DNA of 32,833 bases from Candidatus Kaiserbacteria bacterium. Its GTDB lineage: Bacteria > Patescibacteriota > Minisyncoccia > Phycocordibacterales > UBA2100. The DNA lies in NCBI GenBank assembly GCA_016217935.1, contig JACRFJ010000020.1, positions 1 to 32,833 on the forward strand, given 5' to 3'. Within the stretch, counting starts at the first letter, position 1. The number at the start of each line of letters is the position of its first letter. The notes under the pieces are model-generated. The model was not told the DNA's origin. It did no database searches and saw nothing but the letters and a program-made list of their open reading frames with translations. Shown in pieces: positions 1,064 to 5,609 of the stretch. The translations under genes were made by a program, and so were the position numbers.

Positions 1064-1114
1064 TACCTTTCGTCCTTTTGGACTCATCAGTCGGGATACG
1101 CATCCTGAGAGGTA
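1064..1114 (-). ncRNA. Type III hammerhead ribozyme
   Basis: Minus strand: TACCTC^TCAGGATGCGTATCCCGACTGATGAGTCCAAAAGGACGAAAGGTA. Core CTGATGA - GTCC/AAAA/GGAC stem II - GAAA; stem III TACCT/AGGTA; CTC cleavage triplet; stem I TC-a-GGAT/GCGT/ATCC-c-GA. Confidence 0.9.
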
Positions 1115-4163: not shown

Positions 4164-4533
4164 CGCCTCGGGCATTTTCGCTAGGGCGGCCAGGCCGACG
4201 GATGAGCGCCGCCGTTCTCTTGCAACATTTGAATCCAAAAGCGGAAGCGACACCACGAAAGAAATATTGAAAACGAGGATAGGGGTTGTGCGATGGGCGG
4301 ACGCTGAAGGCCCGTACATGCGAGGCACAAAGGAAAGCAAACAAAGAAAGTCCAATATAGCCGTGGCGTTAGGTGACAGCTGCGAAGCGGAGACCGAGCT
4401 GGGGGAAGGATGCCTTCCTTCCCCCAATCAGAGGCGCTGCCCGCGCTACCGCCGAGCACGGCGGGAGTAGCGCGGAATAGCAGCGCACCGAGGCATCTAG
4501 GCGCGAGTAGCCCTAGCGAAAATGCCCGAGGCG
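4164..4533 (+). ncRNA. Large structured RNA candidate closed by a perfect 24-bp long-range stem
   Basis: CGCCTCGGGCATTTTCGCTAGGGC (4164-4187) pairs with GCCCTAGCGAAAATGCCCGAGGCG (4510-4533). Nested hairpins inside: GGGGGAAGGA/TCCTTCCCCC and GCGCTGC-CCGCGCTA-CCGCC/GGCGG-TAGCGCGG-GCAGCGC. Confidence 0.7.
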
Positions 4534-4656
4534 GATGCCGAGGGTGACACCCCGTGGCTCTGGCCGACCGCTAGCGACAATAGAATGCACGAGGCTCAAT
4601 ATTGCATTTGTATCTAACGGCTCACACAAAGGGAATGTTGAGCCGTTCGGGTTTGC

Positions 4657-4848
4657 GCCCCGCCGCCATTCAATTTTGCATTCCCCCGCGAAAAATAAAA
4701 AAGAATGGAAAGCGGCGGGGCGGGGGTTCGAGGGCGCGCGTACTCGCGCGCCCAAGAGAGTCACCACGAAACCGAATCGTACGATCCGGTACTGTGCCAC
4801 CACGCGCGCGGAGCGCGCGAGTCAGTTCCGTTCAAAATAGGTTCGAGC
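4657..4848 (+). repeat. Multi-hairpin element R, copy B
   Basis: Stem 4657-4666/4712-4721 (10 bp), CCATTC/GAATGG, hairpin 4732-4753 (9 bp, TACT loop), hairpin 4803-4819 (7 bp). Similar to the reverse complement of 851-1044. Confidence 0.85.
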
Positions 4849-4883: not shown

Positions 4884-4909
4884 GGCCCAAAGTAATCCTT
4901 TGGGCCTTT
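4884..4909 (+). terminator. Rho-independent terminator of the CSD/structured-RNA transcript
   Basis: GGCCCAAAG-TAATC-CTTTGGGCC-TTT. Confidence 0.75.
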
Positions 4910-4964
4910 CGTGTACGGCTTTGAGCGAGTTCCAATTGTTCTCGTCCTCAGAGAGAGGGTAAGA

Positions 4965-5609
4965 CTAATGAGAATCCCCCTTAATTGCAATGTAATAGTG
5001 CGAGAGGTTGTATTCTTCTTTTTCCGGATGTGAGTCCGGATATTGCACAAGTTTCAATTCACGAAAGCCCGCACGTTTTGCCATTTCTTCGAGCGCCTGA
5101 TGCTCACGTTCCATGCGCCACTCTTTATAGGCATCACTTTTCTTGTCCGGCGCCGCTGCGCTTCCTCGCTGCAACTCTTGTTCATCAAGCAATGTGTCTG
5201 TGAAGCGGAATTGTCCATCGGGCTTCAATACACGACATGCCTCACGAAGCGCATCTTCGACATAGTTCAGATATTTTTCTTCGTAGCCGTTTTCTATATA
5301 GTTCATGACAGACATATGCGCCAGCGCATAATCAAATGATTCATCCTTGAACGGCAGCTTCGTGGCATTCGCGACGACAAATCGACTATCGGTCGGCGGC
5401 GCGTATTCGCCATCATCGAGTCCTTTATCCAGAGAAATGACATTGATTCCTCGTCGACGAGCCGCGTTTTCAAATTCAGCGCTCATCGCTCCTACGTCGA
5501 GTATTCTTTTTCCTTGGAGTTCTCCCCATGACAGACCGAGGTTCGAGAGATAACGGTTTCCCGCCGCTTCTGCAGCCTCTCTGTTGTGCGTATGGGATCG
5601 CTCGATCAT
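4965..5609 (-). CDS. SAM-dependent class I methyltransferase
   Basis: GKRILDVGAMSAEFENAARRRG...NATKLPFKDESFDYALAHMSVMNYI...LREACRVLKPDGQFRFTD. Confidence 0.85.
   Translation of the reverse strand: MIERSHTHNREAAEAAGNRYLSNLGLSWGELQGKRILDVGAMSAEFENAARRRGINVISLDKGLDDGEYAPPTDSRFVVANATKLPFKDESFDYALAHMSVMNYIENGYEEKYLNYVEDALREACRVLKPDGQFRFTDTLLDEQELQRGSAAAPDKKSDAYKEWRMEREHQALEEMAKRAGFRELKLVQYPDSHPEKEEYNLSHYYIAIKGDSH

Follow-up and report, generated by a model that had tools for sequence, protein, structure and literature searches.

The minus strand of a 32,833-nucleotide stretch of DNA from Candidatus Kaiserbacteria bacterium, hereafter the window, carries at positions 1114-1064 a complete type III hammerhead ribozyme that is with little doubt genuine and very probably active, its activity being inferred in the absence of cleavage data. 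The ribozyme belongs to a class spread through the Patescibacteria, and the best explanation overall, which is moderately favoured over its rivals, is that hammerheads of this class end the mRNAs of expression cassettes with a defined, structure-capped 3' end. The sequence, the covariation, the placement behind genes, the abutting hairpins, the composition and the flanks shared around unrelated genes are shown, and from these are inferred cleavage in the cell, message stability and exchange of cargo.

An earlier note, made from the sequence alone, had claimed a complete type III hammerhead at 1064-1114 with a cut between 1109 and 1108; its letters match the sequence exactly, the ribozyme held on both sequence and class model, and the cut site is supported as a prediction (by RF00008, the class model and class covariation), without cleavage data. 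Along the minus strand the parts are an open stem III of 5 bp (1114-1110/1068-1064), U16.1 and H17, which is C17 at 1109, stem I of six positions with one A.C mismatch (1108-1091), the CUGAUGA core (1090-1084), stem II GUCC-AAAA-GGAC (1083-1072), and the GAA core (1071-1069) followed by A15.1. The requirements of the type III form, that is, the invariant core CUGANGA...GAA, A15.1-U16.1, H17, three helices and an open stem III, are all met. The default Rfam scan of the window is empty because the ribozyme scores below the gathering score of RF00008 (48.5), as do nearly all of its relatives; without this cut-off, RF00008 is the best match of all families in a 1-kb scan (26.8 bits, E=0.0028), and when the whole genome is scanned it finds the ribozyme with 30.4 bits (E=5e-5). 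The cut-off is regarded here as a curation threshold and not as a functional feature. A covariance model built from 46 relatives, from which the window was left out to avoid circularity, gives the ribozyme 68.7 bits (E=4.3e-21), the next match in the window having E=0.69; the calibration of this model was short and its E-values are therefore rough. No second hammerhead is found in the genome, where the ribozyme is a single copy. Thermodynamic folding of 66 nt returns a minimum-energy form that is not the hammerhead, which is expected because its short stems are held by tertiary contacts. Two outcomes named beforehand as refutations were the lack of a covariance-model hit and substitutions at invariant core nucleotides in related loci: the Rfam cut-off was indeed missed, yet the E-values are significant and the class model is decisive, and related loci retain every invariant core base.

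The class is concentrated in one lineage. RF00008 at E<=1 has matches in 52 of 380 Patescibacteria genomes, the gathering score being passed in only 1, and the 51-nt form is recovered by the class model R1 at E<=0.01 in 47 of the 380, about one in eight sampled; the same model at E<=1e-4 finds it in none of 248 and none of 199 genomes of two other phyla, once the seed genomes, picked because they had a match, are excluded. An exact core-plus-stem-II pattern searched over 85,462 species occurs in at least 117 stretches, most of those listed being labelled Patescibacteria, and complete stems I and III, neither of which the pattern required, are present in 109 of 122 matches away from contig edges. 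The same 51-nt form is also present on two contigs with the labels Phycisphaerales and Polynucleobacter, which may be misbinned. In the dominant form (106 of 172) stem-loop I is 18 nt and stem-loop II 12 nt long; in 90 relatives of this form 98.4% of stem cells pair, a figure raised by the choice of loci partly by pairing, compensatory changes on both sides are found in 13 of 15 pairs, and covariation reaches a score of 0.88, compared with 0.19 when shuffled and at most 0.12 when slid. The core bases are invariant in 105 sequences except for position 7 (U/C), H17 is never G across the class, and the loops usually read UGYGUR (loop I) and RAAA (loop II). Stem covariation together with invariant catalytic bases points to selection on RNA folding and catalysis.

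These ribozymes generally follow genes. At 67 of 105 loci an ORF of >=110 codons, read in the same direction, ends 10-200 nt upstream, against 17 with an antisense ORF, and the median distance from stop to ribozyme is 81 nt. The last 120 nt before the ribozyme are strongly folded (mean z=-3.41), and a perfect stem of >=7 bp ends <=4 nt from stem III more often than at control positions (17%), namely at 56% of the 172 cellular and at 70% of the 30 viral loci of type III. An H-type pseudoknot is possible in 13 of 45 hairpins with an A-rich 3' loop (1.7 expected), a subset picked after examples had been seen; the two copies in L044 form S1 through differing pairings, CGAG/CUCG and CAAG/CUUG. Kissing-loop pairing of the 3' UTR hairpins was rejected as a feature of the class, since over 110 loci it did not exceed shuffles, and the A-rich-loop pseudoknots were the only subset to pass. 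Downstream, a boxA-like TTCTTT[AG]A lies within the first 6 nt after the ribozyme at 14 loci, where chance gives 1.4 for the whole 100-nt stretch, and boxA-like motifs are also enriched before genes (12/118 vs 10/728, p=6e-6); the two counts overlap where the next gene of an array follows. A terminator-like site after the ribozyme is found in only 27%, compared with 15% of shuffles. The cargo genes exceed the GC content of their surroundings by 8.3 points on average, and by >5 points in 69% against 16% of control ORFs, the choice of the longest ORF as the gene favouring GC-rich ORFs somewhat; they also fold better than control ORFs beyond what dinucleotide composition explains (z -1.20 vs -0.59, p=6e-6).

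The window locus meets this anatomy, with the stop of a co-directional gene upstream and a hairpin abutting stem III. A small minus-strand operon is preceded by the best promoter of the region, TTGACA-17-TAGAAT at 2080-2108 (11 of 12 consensus bases), and comprises a gene of 158 aa read from the ATG at 1982 (1506-1982), without a Pfam match, and a second of 104 aa (1181-1495), whose helix-hairpin-helix product is weakly alpha-CTD-like (Pfam RNA_pol_A_CTD, E=0.0079, below cut-off). The operon genes have 62-63% GC against about 51%, gene 2 in particular having a GC of 62 and a GC3 of 74, and no homologue of gene 2 is found in 59 relatives; the window thus fulfils a criterion of the class, GC-rich cargo missing from close relatives. 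A phage origin of the window gene was rejected, there being no match in 50,697 phage records. On the minus strand between stop codon and ribozyme lies a 9-bp hairpin, GCGAGAGUC-CACG-GACUCUCGC, at 1115-1136, which abuts stem III and is supported by the fold z and by the class-wide enrichment of such hairpins; the 3' UTR (1186-1109) has a fold z of -4.49. A second hairpin on the same strand (1152-1171) exposes the loop UCCGUG, complementary to CACGGA of the abutting hairpin, and a kissing pair between the two is possible, though statistically unsupported (p about 0.1). The window has no boxA.

The placement in the 3' UTR of a small accessory operon, claimed by the earlier note, is thus supported on both counts, the distance from the alpha-CTD-like gene being corrected from 67 nt to 66 nt (stop codon 1183-1181). 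The role suggested there, separation of the upstream mRNA from a downstream element R, fits where the class is placed but covers only part of the picture: the Patescibacteria-wide class, the hairpin abutting stem III in the window and most relatives, and the flanks common to unrelated genes were all outside its sight.

Element R, the 3' flank that follows the ribozyme on the minus strand (879-1060), has an inverted copy at 4656-4819 which lies beyond a divergent plus-strand unit and has no ribozyme. The two are copies of a GC-rich element, about 80-93% in the arms, set beyond two divergent transcription units, and outside them is located a minus-strand serine recombinase truncated by the contig end (1-653; PF00239, E=1.6e-22). 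Three readings are possible, namely a 3' flank common to both units, a terminal repeat, and an invertible segment; no partner for this flank was found in other genomes, only the inverted copy inside the window. The array setting of prophage hammerheads is not met here, the genome holding a single hammerhead whose neighbours are the recombinase and an orphan gene.

Elsewhere in the class, 31 of 130 loci can be matched with another locus whose 3' flank is homologous beyond the ribozyme itself but whose gene is unrelated, and 10 pairs with unrelated genes have both flanks in common. L054 and L058, from different families, are 85% identical over the stretch from -47 to +247 relative to the ribozyme. 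Their 5' flanks, which hold a TTGACA/TATA-type promoter and a boxA, are 77-82% identical, but there is no relationship between their genes (132 and 336 aa). In L037 both flanks are similar too, though more distantly. L058 adjoins mraZ and rsmH, and in the stretches fetched from 13 relatives with mraZ there is neither the L058 gene nor a ribozyme. Since unrelated genes share 3' and sometimes 5' flanks, the loci look like expression cassettes with swapped cargo. Homologous recombination between the flanks would be the simplest way of exchange, the mode being inferred. As regards the window, the cassette reading rests on its relatives, because it lacks both a boxA and a clear homologue of the flanks shared elsewhere. 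Other sources of likeness were rejected, namely a cargo family common to the loci (homology joins only 13 pairs of the 118 proteins, and family hits are scattered), an apparent 40% identity of cargo with L116, which was based on 5 residues, and an rRNA leader as source of the shared 5' flank, to which there is no homology.

On viral contigs, many of them 38-63 kb long, the same form of ribozyme scores up to 73.7 bits and is arrayed between small genes, where a hairpin of the same kind abuts it and the order is gene-hairpin-hammerhead. Five of these contigs (L195, L208, L225, L227, L241) are related and alike in gene content; they carry such arrays, and a hairpin around GTGTCTTCAAAGACAC recurs among them, abutting the ribozyme. 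In a cellular array (L078, 2473-6528) 8 hammerheads lie in about 4 kb, all copies having the stem III CTGTTC/AACAG in common; several segments between its ribozymes are apparently non-coding, with a repeated three-hairpin RNA (z=-3.3).

In the proposed role, a cassette would comprise a promoter and leader, a variable GC-rich and strongly folded coding sequence, a hairpin or pseudoknot, the hammerhead, and often a terminator-like site or boxA; the putative order in the window is promoter, two GC-rich genes, structured 3' UTR and ribozyme. Transcription would run through genes, hairpin and ribozyme, which would fold co-transcriptionally and cut 5-9 nt beyond the hairpin across the class, in the window after C1109, where the 9-bp hairpin would sit 6 nt from the new 3' end. 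Hammerhead cleavage leaves a 2',3'-cyclic phosphate end. The cleaved mRNA would be freed from downstream RNA and have a structured 3' end from the outset, and the inferred benefit is resistance to 3' exonucleases, hence a long-lived independent message even if transcription runs on; the folded GC-rich coding sequence and the structured 3' end may both slow decay. Against a stability role, a plain terminator hairpin would also protect the 3' end, and the advantage of a ribozyme is not explained. A bolder reading, somewhat less likely than not, is that Patescibacteria and some phages carry undescribed expression cassettes with ribozyme-made protected 3' ends, providing long-lived messages in ultra-small cells; as part of it, unrelated cargo would be exchanged between a common promoter/boxA leader on one side and, on the other, a common 3' module of a hammerhead with its pseudoknot or hairpin, and the mRNA 3' end would come from cleavage by the ribozyme, not from termination.

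Among the rival explanations, the closest is phage-style operon processing, in which transcripts of phages or mobile elements are cut into single-gene mRNAs, the hairpin only insulates the ribozyme or aids its folding, and stability is not the point. This is possible: the same ribozyme and abutting hairpin occur in the viral arrays, arrays exist in cells too (the 8 copies of L078), and clustered hammerheads flanking genes in prophages were described by Perreault et al. 2011 (PMC3088659). However, most cellular loci hold one ribozyme, several adjoin the core genes mraZ/rsmH, ppsA or uvrB, and only 25 PHROG families match, as scattered hits among the 118 cargo proteins. Since the gene-hairpin-hammerhead order of the viral arrays favours the cutting of run-on transcripts into single messages, the stability and phage-processing readings overlap. 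That the window ribozyme is a decayed or chance match without activity is all but excluded; the unreached gathering score and the differing minimum-energy fold speak for it, but E=4e-21 in a model made without this ribozyme and the retention of all invariant bases speak against it.

Two further rivals concern mobile DNA and circular RNA. It is unlikely that the conserved flanks, ribozyme included, are the ends of mobile DNA, such as an integron-like cassette or a non-autonomous transposon, with the ribozyme serving movement and not mRNA maturation. The flanks common to unrelated genes on both sides, the lack of the unit at mraZ in 13 relatives, and the serine recombinase and inverted flanks beside the window ribozyme are in its favour; against it, the covarying stems and unvarying catalytic bases show that RNA folding and catalysis are under selection, no end sequence common to the shared flanks is obvious, and upstream of the ribozyme L037 is divergent. 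Still less credible is a circular RNA, in which two successive type III hammerheads would release a unit, its stem III halves would pair and the ribozyme would religate the circle. The array copies of L078 share stem III, and so the ends of a released unit could re-form the active site; however, a unit with two ends cannot form where there is only one ribozyme, as in the window genome and most others, and published tests of tandem bacterial hammerheads gave no circles (PMC3088659).

The class stands close to several known systems. With Hammerhead_3 (RF00008), known from viroids, satellite RNAs and plant genomes, it shares the core, three stems, open stem III and NUH cut site, and differs in that its loops are short and uniform (stem I UGYGUR, stem II RAAA), its scores reach the gathering cut-off in only 1 of 380 genomes, and a viroid or retroelement context is lacking. 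Bacterial and prophage hammerheads are found near small non-conserved genes, are sometimes clustered and phage-linked, and cleave polycistronic RNA (PMC3088659; de la Pena review, PMC6155905). The class has this gene-adjacent, sometimes clustered, phage-linked setting in common with them; in contrast, its ribozymes are of a single uniform type III form, found at the 3' ends of genes and chiefly in Patescibacteria, and the abutting hairpin or pseudoknot, the boxA after some ribozymes, the GC-rich cargo and the shared flanks are undescribed in the relevant sections of these papers. Integron gene cassettes with attC combine varied single genes with a structured 3' element that they have in common, and some stand in arrays; the class is alike in these respects, whereas it has its own promoter and leader and its element is a catalytic RNA under base-pair covariation. 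Plant retrozymes, non-autonomous retroelements that spread by non-coding circular RNA (PMC6155905), also have type III hammerheads in genomic elements, while those of the class are single ribozymes following protein genes.

Bacterial hammerheads are thus already known, and it is the class-wide setting that provisionally looks new: no paper linking hammerheads or other self-cleaving ribozymes to Patescibacteria was found in the open-access literature searched, and novelty remains provisional because subscription papers and preprints were outside the scope of the search. The function of bacterial hammerheads is still called an open question in the reviews of the field, and a large, uniform, lineage-concentrated set with consistent anatomy makes testable whether cleavage makes stable mRNA 3' ends. 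The class also points to cassette-like gene exchange in Patescibacteria, and its covariance model finds ribozymes missed by the default Rfam cut-off.

Some structured elements accompany the ribozymes at particular loci. A conserved 3' UTR motif around GAGCCUAGAGGAAGCAGAGCCUC lies upstream of the hammerhead in different lineages (L049, L081, L101, L139, L148), and a conserved long hairpin, UAUGGCAAG...CUUGUCAUA, precedes a stem III of the UUCGCUC type in L102, L119, L122 and L170, some of which are labelled Saccharibacteria. L148, whose locus holds five hammerheads, also has a DUF3800-IX RNA at 4909-4977 (RF02968, 43.1 bits). In the window, a perfect 24-bp inverted repeat at 4164-4533 surrounds 322 nt of apparently non-coding, structured sequence, which has no Rfam match at gathering and is a candidate large ncRNA.
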